A stretch of DNA of 64,000 nucleotides from Chelonoidis abingdonii (Eukaryota > Chordata > Testudines > Testudinidae). Location of the stretch: assembly GCF_003597395.2 (NCBI RefSeq), contig NC_133776.1:34791298-34855297 (forward strand), written 5' to 3'. A model generated the notes under the pieces. The model saw only the letters and a program-made list of their open reading frames with translations, did no database searches and was not told where the DNA came from. This document shows, piece by piece, positions 19,600-60,931 of the stretch (positions are counted from its first letter, which is position 1; every line of letters starts with the position of its first letter). The position numbers and the translations under genes were made by a program.

Positions 19600-20915
19600 A
19601 TCAGTCTTCACTGCTGAGGATGTGAGGGAGATTCCCAAACCTGAGCCATTCTTTTTAGGTGACAAATCTGAGGAACTGTCCCAGACTGAGGTGTCATTAG
19701 AGGAGGTTTTGGAACAAATTGATAAACTAAACAGTAATAAGTCACCAGGACCAGATGGTATTCACCCAAGAGTTCTGAAGGAACACTAATGTGAAATTGC
19801 AGGACTACTAACTGTAGTCTGTAACCTATCATTTAAATCAGCTTCTGTACCAAATGACTGGAGGATAGCTAATGTGATGCCCATTTTTAAAAAGGGATCC
19901 AGGGGTTTTCCTGGCAATTATAGGCCAGTAAACCTGACTTCAGTACAGGGCAAACTGTTTGAAACTACAGTAAAGAACACAACTGTCAGACATATAGATG
20001 AACATAATTTGTTACAGAAGAGTCAACATAGTTTTAGTAAAGGGAAATCATGTCTCAACAATCTACTAGAATTTTTTAAGGGGGTCTCCAAGCATGTGGA
20101 CAAGAGGGATCCAGTGGATATAGTGTACTTAGATTTTCAGAAAGCCTTTAACAAACGCCCTCACCAAAGGCTCTTAAGCATAGTAAGCTGCCGTGGGATA
20201 AGATGGAAGATGGAAGGTCCTCTCATGGCCTGGTAACTGGTTAAAAGATAGGAAACAAAGGGTAGGAATAAATAGTCAGTTTTCAGAATGGGGAGAGGTA
20301 AATAGTGGTGTCCCCACAGGGGTCTGTACTGGGATCAGTCCTATTCAACATATTCATAAATGATCTGGAAAAGGGGTAAACAGTGAGGTGGCAAAATTAG
20401 CAGATGATACAAAACTACTCAAGAGAGTTAAGTTCCAAGCAGACTGCCAAGAACTACAAAAGTATCTCTCAAAAGTGGATGACTTGGCAACAAAATGCTA
20501 GATGAAATTAAATGTTGATAAATGCAAAGTAATGCACATTGGAAAACATAATCCCAACTATACATATAAAATGATGGGGACTAAATGAGCTGTTAGCACT
20601 CAAGAAAGAGATCTTGGAGTCATAGTGGATAGTTCTCTGAAAACATCCACTTAATGTGCATCAGCAGTCAAAAAAGAGAAGAGAACATTAGGAATCATTA
20701 AGAAAGGGATAGATAATAAGACAGAAAATATAATATTGCCTCTATATAAATCCATGGTATGCCCACTGAATACTGTGTGCAGATGTGGTCGCCTCATATC
20801 AAAAAAGATGTATTGGAATTAGGAAAGCTTCAGAAAAGGACAACCCAAATGATTAGGGATCTGGAATGGCTTCCGTATGCGGAGAGATTAATAAGACTGG
20901 GACCTTTTGACCTTG
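19600..20915 (+). mobile_element. CR1-clade LINE reverse-transcriptase fragment
   Basis: A decayed non-LTR reverse transcriptase can be followed over almost the whole stretch, with frameshifts and stops. In order it shows SVFTAEDVREIPKPEPFF, KLNSNKSPGPDGIHPRVLKE, DWRIANVMPIFKKGSRGFPG, NYRPVNLTSV, FSKGKSCLNNLLEFF, VDIVYLDFQKAFN, then a GVPQGS-like block, LADDTKLL at about 20394-20417 (catalytic FADD with F replaced by L), MKLNVDKCKVMHIG, and a C-terminal KLQKRT-like block. The endonuclease, the 5' end and the 3' tail are missing. The right edge runs straight into an inverted L2-like fragment. Confidence 0.88.
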
Positions 20916-56880: not shown

Positions 56881-58059
56881 CATTTTTCCTCAGAGCCCTT
56901 ACCACACACACGCACATCTCTATTGAAAATCTCCCCCAGACAGCAGAGACACCACTCCAGAGGTGATAGTCAGTCTTCTCCAGGCTTAGTCAATCCTTGG
57001 GCTCTGCTGCGATGCCAACAGGGTTTTCAAATGGTGAGTTTTGTGATGCGGATACTTGTTCACTATGGATTAAACTGAGACCACCAACATGAAATGAGCT
57101 GAAGATCTGTCAATATCCAATAGCCCATATTTGAACTGGTAGGCTGTATGTACCATTGCAATTGCATACTGCTATAACAATCTGCTGTATCGTCTCCCAT
57201 CTGCTCATCATCTTTGAACTCATGAGAGTGAAGTGATGCTACATTACTTGTTCCATTTTTCCATTATATCTAGTCACTGACTGACATGCCGTAGAAACTA
57301 TTTATATATTTCAGGTAATTTATTCTGTTAATTGTCTTTGAGTACTTCATGATTATCCAAACATGCATAGACTTAAATGACAACAGGAATAAATCTACAT
57401 TACTAGAGGCACTGAAATTAAATTGGTTGCCTAAGAATTCAATATAGCTCAATGTTACTGGGGCACAACTAGAACATGTACAAAGAAATTGAACCCCTGC
57501 TACTTAATCCATTGTTATAAACCTCATCATTTCCAATCCACATCTAGTGAACCATTTTTAATTGTGTAGAACCGCAAAACTTTTTCTAACATCATATAGC
57601 AAAAGTGGTGAACACACACAAATAATAATTCTATAAAAATTGCCTGCATGGATGCATCTCTCATCAGAAAAGCTTACCTACTGCAAACTTAACTAGCTTA
57701 CTGATGAGCTCAGCTAATTAGTGAGGTGCCTTTAATCTTGATGGACCATTAACAGCTGACAATGAGCCTTTGTGTTAGGAAAGGCAGGATGATATCTAAA
57801 TTTAGCATGGGCTTCCAAGCCAGGAAGGGTTTCTGATGGACAGGGATGGCTTCAGGGCTGAATTCTAAAGCACTGATAATAAGTGAGAAATTTAGAAGTG
57901 TGTGTGAGAGATGCACAGATATCTTCTAGATGAAGGTCTGAACACAGCTGTTTCTGGAGTACAAGTGTGCCATGTGTGTGAATTGTATTTCTGCTACCCT
58001 AAATCCCTATTCAAGAATGCACACATCTTTAGTATACTAAGTATTAATGTATGTGATTG
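56881..58059. other. Unannotated DNA, no gene seen
   Basis: No gene is visible. The first 200 bases after the PLE fragment do not continue its reading frame. The rest is AT-rich. Confidence 0.45.
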
Positions 58060-58104
58060 CATAGACAAAAAAGGCAGATGAAGTAGTATCTTTCTGTTGG
58101 TGAG

Positions 58105-58150
58105 AGAGAGAGAATCTTGCAAGCTACACAGAGCTCTTCATCAAGTCGAG
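58105..58150 (-). ncRNA. Decayed hammerhead motif, left PLE arm
   Basis: On the minus strand TTGATGA (58138-58144; core CTGANGA with C to T) is followed by a stem GAGCT to AGCTT with a CTGTGT loop, and then GCAA at 58117-58120 where the core needs GAAA. One change in each catalytic strand means it is probably inactive. Confidence 0.55.
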
Positions 58151-58714
58151 GAAAGATACTCAGAATGTCACAGATATATAAAAGATTGAACAGATAGAAT
58201 ATGTGCCAACTACTTATGCTAAACTAAGGAACCATTCAAGATGAAGTCGCCTGTTAACGCCCCTCCAGTCACAGGACCAAAAGGGGAGTTAGTGGGTTAT
58301 GGATCATTGTAATAAGCCATAAATCCAGTCTTTTTATAAAGACCATGTTTTTAGTATCAAGCAAAATTACCAATTTAAGCTCCCAGGCTCACCTTTTGAT
58401 ATCTGAGCGGTCAGATATAGAGTAATCATTTTGTGAGAGTGTTTCCCCATGGTGATGTAGTGTTTTTGTCTTTTATCATTTCCCTGTATGAGTTCATTTG
58501 AGAGGGTAGTGACTGTCTAGTTTAACTCACATACTTTTCACTGGAGCATTTAGTGCACTGGATGAATTACACCACGTATTGTGATAGACACGTGTAGGAC
58601 CCAGAAATCTTTGAAAGGTGTGTTGTAGGGGGTGTTGATTATTATAGCAGTGGACATATGTCCACAAGTTTTGCATCTGTTGTTCTGGCACAATCCTTCC
58701 AAATGATGAGCCTC

Positions 58715-58765
58715 TCTCAGCCCTGAAGAAGAGCTCAGTGTAGCTCGAAGTTTTGTCTCTCTCAC
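58715..58765 (+). ncRNA. Decayed hammerhead motif, right PLE arm
   Basis: CTGAAGA (58723-58729, a valid CTGANGA) is followed by stem II GAGCT (58731-58735) and AGCTC (58742-58746) with a CAGTGT loop, then GAAG at 58747-58750. Only the last base of the GAAA core differs. This is the least damaged of the three hammerhead relics in the window. Confidence 0.6.
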
Positions 58766-58858
58766 CAACAGAAGTTAGTTCAGTAGAAAATATTACCTCA
58801 CCCACCTCGTCTTTCTGATAGCTTGAGACCGACACGGCTACAACAACACTGCATGCAA

Positions 58859-60931
58859 CATTGTGATTGCATTGTTATTTGTTGCCCATATGCACAGAGG
58901 ATGGATTTTTTTTTTTCCTAAACAGAAAAACATACGTACCTGGGTACAGCATGGGGTCTCACAGATACTAATGGGGGGAAATAACTTAAATTAGCAGGAC
59001 AGATTAAAGTCTGTAACATGAAAAGCAATAAATAAATGCAAAAGGTCAAATCCAAAAGGTGGTGCTAAGGTGAAGGGAGAAGGTACTTTCCACCCTAAAA
59101 CATTTGAACAAGAAGTGGGCATAATTTGACTGGCTTCACTATGGAGTGCAAGTGGTGTGGGTAGACTTCAGAAGTGCTTGCATTACTAATAAGGCCCAGG
59201 TAGATGGCAAGCACAGGAAGAAAGTGCTGCTGGGGTGTTTTGCATGGTCACTGCTCAGCACTTACCTCTTATTTTCTCTGGGTGCGCTACTGCTAGGCAG
59301 GAATAATACACCTGGACACTGGAATTTTTATTTGCCCTTTTAGCAAAAATATAAAATAAATCAACATCTTCTCTGCTATGACATTTTGATATTACTACAG
59401 TATTTCCTGTGCTTTGAAAAGGGAATAGTCCAAAATCAGGATAAGGCCAAATATCATTTGGGGGCAAGGGTAATTGTAATTGTTTTGTAATTGTAGAAAT
59501 TGCAGTGCTTGAGGTAGCAATGGTATTATTTACAGACAAAACCCCTTTTCTCTGTCATTATTTGCCGGACTGGTTATTATTTACTGAGGGCCATCAGTTA
59601 GTTCAGGAGTTGGCACACAGAAGAAGCTACAATCCCTATCTTCAGGAGATTACAATCTGAATCCACCACAGACCATACAGCTCAGACACTCATGAAACAT
59701 TACATTCAATGCACTGATAGATAAATCCCCAAAGATTTAACGAGATCAGTTTGGATTTTTTCTGTTGCTTATCTTAACCCATTGGATAAGAACAGGCTCT
59801 CATCAGATTTTGTTTTGGTTTTGATACCTTAGTATTGGTTCTAGCCAGGTAAAAAATAATACTTCAATAATAGTCCCTTTGACAGAGTATGTTCATTCAC
59901 TTGTGTTGCTAGCCAAAACCAGGTGCAGGGACAAAAAGAAACTACAGAAAGTTACGTCAAGTTATTCAAATATCAAATGAAGTTTTGGGAGTGGGGCGTC
60001 CCAATTCCAGGTTTAGGGAACGATTCAAATCAGCTCATTTTCTCTGAACTAGTTTGCCCTTCACTGCTGAAATGATCCAAAGAAAGATGAAAACTGATCA
60101 CAGACATAATGCAAATCTATTATTTTTAGTTATCATGGGTCAGATCTTCCGCTAAGGATCCAGCCCCACAATTCTAGCACCTTGCAAGGAATGCTTAAAT
60201 ACTCACTAGAACAACTGTTCTATTGTATCCCCCTGATATTTCTGGAAAATTCCAGCCTTAACCTTTCCAACAAAAGGACAAACGCATAAAGGTCTTCTTT
60301 TTGTTTGCATGGTAACACTTCTGACCTAAGCATAGAATTCTTCCTTGAAAGTATAGCTGAAAAGTACTTGCAGCTCTAAAGATCATCTAGTGTATTCATG
60401 TACACTGCCTTCTCTTCATTTTGAATGCTTGATGGTACTGTACTCTCATAAATTTGATCATATTTATTATAGCAAATAACCATTATTCAAAACACGTGTG
60501 TTCTGCATATTAAGAATAATTAAATACCAAGTTGTGAGTTGAATACTCCATGTTTCCTAATGCTATCAATGATGCCTAATAAATCAAAAGCATGATCTTG
60601 CTGAATTTCTACTCTATCTGATCCTGTATATTCACTGTTATCTCCTATAGCCTCCTCAATTCCATTTCAATTTCTAATTCTTTTCAGAGACAGCATGATC
60701 TACACTAATGCATAAAGGTCATCTATCGTTGCTTTACTTTACTAACATCAATAATGTCCAAATATGAAGCCAACTTTATCTGAGTGGTTACAATGCCTAG
60801 AACAATTGTATCTGAGTAAATCATATTTAAATTACAATATGATTAATATTTTTGCCCTAAATCAATAAGCATTAATCACACAAGGGAAATAAAGTTGGTA
60901 TATCCCATTCCCATTTCCTAGAGTAGTGTTA
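58859..60931. other. AT-rich DNA, no gene seen
   Basis: No exon is visible. 59600-59680 weakly resembles a MIR-like tail (AGATTACAATCTGAATCC). The rest cannot be named. Confidence 0.45.

Follow-up and report, generated by a model that had tools for sequence, protein, structure and literature searches.

The DNA analysed here is a stretch of 64,000 nucleotides from Chelonoidis abingdonii contig NC_133776.1 (hereafter the window), in which positions 58715..58765 of the forward strand resemble a hammerhead ribozyme. This motif lies in one of two inverted arms of a 799-bp insertion. The best explanation of the whole, which we regard as likely, is a single insertion of a Penelope-like element (PLE) from a family that carried a minimal type I hammerhead, of which this copy has decayed. 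The features of the insertion are as follows.

58052..58062, no strand: left target-site duplication TGTGATTGCAT, an exact 11-mer repeated at 58862-58872
58063..58861, minus strand: whole PLE-type insertion, 799 bp, with a minus-strand coding remnant, bounded by the 11-bp duplication
58063..58173, minus strand: left arm, a short-type tail copy spanning consensus index 12-134 with a 14-nt deletion (consensus alignment)
58104..58148, minus strand: decayed hammerhead-like sequence in the left arm, TTGATGA-A-GAGCT(CTGTGT)AGCTT-GCAA (direct reading and arm alignment)
58225..58690, minus strand: remnant of coding sequence and 3′ untranslated region with a stop-broken GIY-YIG-like reading, matched at seven other loci
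58707..58857, plus strand: right arm, an inverted long-type tail copy spanning consensus index 23-175 (consensus alignment)
58719..58722, plus strand: 5′ strand of stem I, AGCC (AGAC in the family), with three of four pairs kept with 58755-58758
58723..58729, plus strand: hammerhead core CTGAAGA (direct reading and mechanical scan)
58730..58730, plus strand: additional A preceding stem II, characteristic of the family (33 of 34 copies)
58731..58746, plus strand: stem II hairpin GAGCT-CAGTGT-AGCTC (direct reading and mechanical scan)
58747..58754, plus strand: GAAGTTTT in place of the family's GAAAGCTT (comparison with the consensus)
58755..58758, plus strand: 3′ strand of stem I, GTCT (family consensus and pair count across families)
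58828..58857, plus strand: AC-rich end of the long tail (ACCGACACGGCTACAACAACACTGCATGCA); copies end mostly at index 128-140 or 167-175
58862..58872, no strand: right target-site duplication TGTGATTGCAT, an exact 11-bp direct repeat

The limits of the insertion were computed from the duplication and the arms. The outer ends of both arms lie at the 11-bp duplication or at most 4 nt from it, so that the simplest reading of 58063-58861 is one insertion; when pairs of 35-nt stretches were drawn at random from the window 20000 times, 5 pairs had an 11-mer in common. The right arm, which ends at 58857, is identical to the tail consensus described below in 118 of 136 alignment columns over index 40-173. 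The left outer end, 58063, comes from a gapped alignment, BLAST alone stopping before the deletion (index 92). When the arms are compared with each other, 58092-58162 (minus) and 58707-58773 (plus) agree in 56 of 71 columns, and the inverted alignment scores 94.8, the highest of 500 shuffles reaching 59.4. For the outermost arm parts the inverted homology alone is not significant (970 of 2000 shuffles reach it), and it was accepted only together with the consensus and the duplication. The two tails thus computed are inverted and face outward, one being longer by 41 positions, and the hammerhead-like stretch of the left arm includes TTGATGAAG at 58136-58144 on the minus strand. Because the coding remnant runs towards the left arm, the right arm is the inverted one. 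A first-pass annotation of this DNA had placed the motif in the right arm of a PLE; it does lie in the arm of such an element, as judged by inverted arms, tail and duplication, but this is the inverted, long-tailed arm and not the one that follows the coding remnant.

The middle of the insertion matches seven other loci in whole or in part. The consensus of seven copies reads HVVYLIQCTKCPNNNYVGETRQSLYSQMNSHR on the minus strand (YVGETRQSL lies within it), a reading broken by stops in the window, and by eye it gives HVVYLIQCTKCPNNNYVGETRQSL, which resembles the GIY-YIG endonuclease of PLEs. In another copy (L075), the reading LDIASLYANIPHHGGI, opposite to the tail, looks by eye like a PLE reverse transcriptase. 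No protein match was obtained with the antisense frame of the window itself. Traits of PLEs that are present include inverted terminal repeats, an optional tail of 30-40 bp on one of them and a target duplication, and the insertion is in all probability a PLE of a known kind, from a hammerhead-bearing family.

The motif contains the three parts that the first-pass annotation had reported: CTGAAGA, a stem II of five Watson-Crick pairs (GAGCT at 58731-58735 with AGCTC at 58742-58746, around the loop CAGTGT) and GAAG at 58747-58750, where the family equivalent is GAAA. The extra A at 58730 had gone unmentioned, and the description of the hammerhead as near-intact has to be withdrawn. The extra A belongs to the family pattern; gone from the window copy are GAAA, the palindrome (AAGTTT for AAGCTT) and one of four stem I pairs. 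With these changes the copy is most likely dead, and we infer that it is presumably an inactive, decayed remnant in an inverted arm. It fails a strict scan for minimal hammerheads, defined as stems I and II of at least four pairs each, CTGANGA, GAAA and UH, and the hammerhead is formed neither when its 91-nt stretch is folded (z +0.67) nor in the fold of the inverted left arm. The bare motif (CTGANGA, 0-1 nt, at least five pairs and GAAN) is expected at 0.36 sites per dinucleotide-shuffled 64 kb (200 shuffles), so by itself it is within the reach of chance and proves little. What raises it above chance is homology, as it stands where the members of a repeat family have their motif. The predicted family cut falls 3′ of the 58747..58754 stretch (58754^58755). 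A cut after GTC (58757) was also considered and was rejected by reading, because no stem I follows there.

The tail family is numerous, with 331 matches to an exact 40-mer of the tail in the organism's own 2.26-Gb genome (control 0), the diverged window copy not being among them. A search of that genome gave 42 rows from 2361 candidates (40 scored), and a query lacking the hammerhead part gave 40 rows. Beyond it, exact patterns in viral and genome contig collections and blastn in phages and plasmids found no copies, and a search of papers for sequence strings found none. Two sets of copies were used: 30 copies chosen by position alone, which form the fair sample, and 63 copies (window included) picked by queries that reach the long end. 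A consensus was computed with MAFFT from 34 distinct copies of the 63 that have an identity of at least 0.8 to the frame over the first 44 bases, the window being excluded. It reads AGAC-CTGAAGA-A-GAGCT(CTGTGT)AGCTC-GAAA-GCTT^GTCT, in the context ...CCCAGAC-CTGAAGA-A-GAGCT-CTGTGT-AGCTC-GAAA-GCTTGTCTCTCTCACC..., where the cut GCTT^GTCT is implied by the stem I pairing AGAC/GTCT. By its letters this is a minimal hammerhead without helix III and with the palindrome AAGCTT, which is able to give a helix III in a dimer. The minimum-energy fold of the consensus holds stem I, stem II and one extra junction pair.

Each of the seven positions of the CTGANGA core is kept in 29-33 of 32-34 copies, and for A13, A14 and A15.1 the figure is 33 of 34 in each case. 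CTGANGA and GAAA occur together in 15 of 46 copies of the identity-ranked set. Copies L008 and L062, for instance, still have an intact motif. In the window and the fetched loci (356,349 bases, overlaps included), the strict scan finds 13 distinct sites, 12 of the first family and one of the second family introduced below, compared with none in 20 dinucleotide shuffles. Because these loci were fetched as tail copies, this contrast is a property of the family and not of the genome as a whole. The first-pass proposal that this PLE family carried a self-cleaving RNA agrees with the 34-copy consensus, which has the core, GAAA and the stem I pair, and it is very likely that the family carried a hammerhead motif. 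The same annotation had asked whether a consensus would restore GAAA and a stem III/stem I pair: the consensus has GAAA and a stem I pair, but with G12, the first base of GAAA, split between G and A. Because of this split, GAAA can be read as the family's form only with the help of an argument from CpG decay and of the second family. The stem II loop divides the first-family copies into those with GTGTAGCTC and those with GTGTAAGCTC, which has one A more in the loop; these variants, combined variously with CG or CA at G12, are perhaps two subfamilies.

The second tail family, which we had first suspected from two predicted turtle proteins (P0003 and P0005), was later found by scanning the window and all fetched loci. 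Its best rows read GCAT-CTGANGA-A-GTGGG...CCCAC-GAAA-GCTT^ATGC, so the layout is that of the first family, with a stem I of GCAT/ATGC and a stem II like GTGGG/CCCAC; G12 is kept in five of seven rows. We aligned 28 sequences, comprising 19 position-sampled copies, the two window arms and seven second-family sequences from six loci, and left out 11 truncated copies of the 30 and two scrambled second-family rows of locus L078. Across the two families, 87.3% of cells are paired, as against 69.4% in shuffles and 21-46% when the strands are slid by 1-3 columns. Cells that have changed on both sides and still pair number 44 of 245 (15.6 in shuffles), and the covariation is 0.506 (0.221 in shuffles); for each of these three measures, none of 500 shuffles reaches the observed value. 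In stem II, 85.0% of cells are paired and four of five pairs change on both sides across families, and in stem I 90.2% are paired and three of four pairs change on both sides (AGAC/GTCT versus GCAT/ATGC). Covariation of stem II, which the first-pass annotation had expected across copies, is thus computed between the two tail families; within one decaying family such a test is unsuitable. At one locus (L006), second-family tails stand head to head, joined at a palindrome containing ATGCAT just upstream of CTGATGA.

The tails end in two ways. Among the 30 position-sampled copies, 15 have a short 3′ end (index 128-140), 13 a long one (167-175) and two neither, and a second method of calling ends agrees for all but one (L103). 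In 15 of these 30 copies a second, inverted tail lies no more than 900 bp upstream, so that the two point outward, whereas the other arrangements (inverted downstream, same strand upstream, same strand downstream) occur once each. In the larger set an inverted upstream partner is found for 39 of 63 copies, or 38 with other scoring. When the four of 15 pairs with an unclear end are excluded, 10 of the remaining 11 join a long to a short end. If identity-ranked copies are included, this rises to 39 of 41 pairs (33 + 6, window excluded), a set whose identity-ranked anchors were chosen for long ends; of the other two pairs, one is short-short and one long-long. Direct repeats of at least 7 nt occur at both outer ends in 12 of the 41 clear pairs, compared with a mean of 0.81 and a maximum of 4 for mismatched flanks (200 shuffles), and repeats of at least 10 nt in six pairs compared with none. 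Given these duplications at the outer ends, the two tails commonly belong to one event. Many two-armed insertions consist of two tails only, which meet within or close to the hammerhead region and have hardly any other element sequence between them, or none.

Several results weigh against a hammerhead-bearing PLE family. The Rfam covariance check that the first-pass annotation had recommended finds no family at the gathering threshold anywhere in the window and no hammerhead at E<=10 in 58200-59300, or in 20 better-preserved copies; the curated score threshold of the hammerhead models is reached by neither the window nor these copies. Given the alignment of 28 sequences, RNAalifold predicts no pairs. 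Two further measures do not exceed the shuffles, namely the pairs in which both sides change at all, 7 of 9 (6.6 in shuffles, 332 of 500 reaching it), and the pair types, 15 (14.3 in shuffles, 218 of 500 reaching it), and CTGANGA is kept in only five of the seven second-family rows. Because the rows fall into two families, the covariation amounts to a single comparison in which several positions compensate, with few independent events. Profile searches gave no Pfam or NCBIfam match for the endonuclease remnant, and no Pfam, NCBIfam or PDB match for the reverse transcriptase-like reading. Copy 5′ ends do not pile up sharply at the predicted cut, index 73 (3 of 30 begin at 71, 74 or 75); an apparent cluster at index 36-43 in the identity-ranked set, of which we make no claim, is perhaps partly due to the query start at index 40. 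At G12, the 34 copies have G in 17 and A in 15, and the 19 position-sampled copies that reach the motif have G in 4 and A in 11, only one of these 19 having CTGANGA and GAAA together. This base lies in a CpG, where CA exceeds TG by 20 to 7 of 46 copies and by 11 to 2 of 19, so simple CpG decay does not explain every A, and the source elements of some copies may have been without G12. Some of these results would suit a chance resemblance, in which CTGAAGA, a short inverted repeat and GAAG merely coincide in an element unrelated to hammerheads: no Rfam hammerhead is found in the window, in 58200-59300 or in the better copies, the window stretch does not fold into one, RNAalifold predicts nothing, and the bare motif is expected at the shuffled frequency given above. 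Such a coincidence is nevertheless very unlikely, since the family consensus adds a stem I and GAAA that the first-pass annotation could not see, the second family keeps the layout with different stems that still pair, and full sites number 13 against none in 20 shuffles.

A possible though doubtful account is that the family once had a hammerhead that was already lost in the source elements of many copies (CAAAAG masters), the motif then being passive baggage or a hairpin kept for the reverse transcriptase. The frequent A at G12 in the position-sampled copies and the excess of CA over TG would follow, and in vitro insertion of PAc, the Poseidon element of Anolis carolinensis, is independent of ribozyme cleavage (PMC11167929). 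However, CG and TG forms occur too (two and two of 19; 13 and 7 of 46), the second family mostly retains G12, and the three adenosines after it are almost invariant in the 34 copies. Extremely improbable, by comparison, is an origin of the paired arms by two independent tail insertions in opposite directions, or as a foldback DNA transposon with terminal inverted repeats. Inverted terminal arms do look transposon-like, and many tails (15 of 30) lack an inverted partner within 900 bp, but the 11-bp duplication is common to the outer flanks of both arms, inverted-outward pairs are far commoner than any other arrangement, and the two arms end some 40 positions apart, which is not the way of terminal inverted repeats. 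Moreover, a coding remnant lies between the arms, in keeping with the PLE structure described in PMC3846280.

Much of this organization has precedents. Minimal type I hammerheads of PLEs were reportedly described by Cervera and De la Pena in 2014 and by Lunse et al. in 2017, according to papers that cite them. With the amniote intronic hammerheads HH9 and HH10, and with those in Rfam, the turtle motif shares the letters of the catalytic core, although it has no Rfam match. The literature describes PLE hammerheads without helix III (PMC7761336, PMC6155905), thought to act as dimers by virtue of a tandem arrangement and of a palindromic helix III loop (PMC6466107). The family resembles the minimal type I hammerheads outlined in PMC7761336 and PMC6466107 in CTGANGA, stem II, GAAA, absence of helix III, a palindrome at the helix III position and a seat in the PLE terminal repeat, whereas the window copy is decayed. 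The presence of hammerheads in PLEs, the inversion of tails and the optional tail have all been published before.

PAc offers the closest comparison of detail (PMC11167929). Its hammerhead lies at the pseudo-long terminal repeat (pLTR), as in the turtle family, and its cut falls 26 bp past a start codon that coincides with the beginning of stem II; here the predicted cut comes 24 nt after the stem II start. Its AC-rich start of reverse transcription lies 111-118 bp into the open reading frame; the corresponding place here, 111-118 nt past the first stem II base, is 58842-58849, AACAACAC. In both, the tail has two alternative ends, defining in PAc a tail of 30-40 bp. In vitro, the protein of PAc cleaves both strands of DNA and extends them, starting at the two tail-defining sites, and the PAc hammerhead cuts only with its protein and is dispensable for insertion in vitro (PMC11167929). 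PAc differs in having an active protein, whereas no reading frame is seen following the motif here, and in showing no strand difference in the start of reverse transcription, whereas the two ends of one turtle insertion differ. In Adineta vaga, as PMC3846280 describes, Penelope pLTRs are likewise inverted head to head with a tail (31 bp) optionally on one, target duplications of 8-10 bp occur in several copies and none in others, and the authors favoured self-priming on an antisense template. Those elements are longer and partly intact, with direct pLTRs too, unlike the many short tail pairs in high copy number found here. A turtle PLE, Penelope-2_CPB, is named in PMC9004415, and CPB tags turtle entries in PMC5753468 (2018), which nevertheless stated that Penelope had not been reported in any amniote.

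The favoured account is a single PLE insertion, with a target duplication at its flanks and, just inside, the element's 3′ tail in two inverted copies that point outward. The motif of its tail family would be a type I hammerhead with a 4-bp stem I, CTGANGA, an extra A, a 5-bp stem II, GAAA, AAGCTT and a predicted cut at GCTT^GTCT. In a living element we infer that this ribozyme would cleave transcripts in tandem, probably after two RNAs had joined through the palindrome, and possibly with the assistance of the element's protein. Dimer action is proposed because AAGCTT can pair with itself between two RNAs and because PLE hammerheads, which lack helix III, are regarded as dimeric in PMC6466107; by this analogy, dimer cutting of tandem element transcripts appears the likeliest role.

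The single copy at 58715..58765 is itself ordinary. PLE insertion is poorly understood, however, and in this genome dead tail copies run into the hundreds, many being two-armed with readable ends. That a single target duplication should enclose one long and one short tail, and this in elements whose hammerhead is palindromic, is a concrete and testable footprint that fits two-ended priming. Among the titles listed for inverted tails and priming in PLEs, none states this rule, which is no proof of newness. In one unlikely reading, the AAGCUU palindrome would pair two element RNAs, this RNA dimer would be the insertion template, and each broken DNA end would prime on one RNA, one end at the long site and the other at the short site about 40 nt away. 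If true, such a template would explain why nearly every examined two-armed insertion has one long and one short outward tail, and the ribozyme motif would then be retained no less for making template dimers than for cutting.

Antisense readings of the tail were also encountered inside five predicted proteins (P0001-P0005), three of them from turtles: P0003 (named PIP4K2A-type) and P0004 (UY3_07110) of Chelonia mydas, and P0005 (named eL20) of Chelydra serpentina. The turtle proteins hold antisense tails of both families, and these readings appear to be exonised or misannotated tails. Elsewhere in the window, positions 19790-20236 of the plus strand contain a 148-aa frame (NYRPVNLTSVQGKLFE) that resembles a reverse transcriptase fragment of a long interspersed nuclear element, with what looks like a CR1/L2-type motif.
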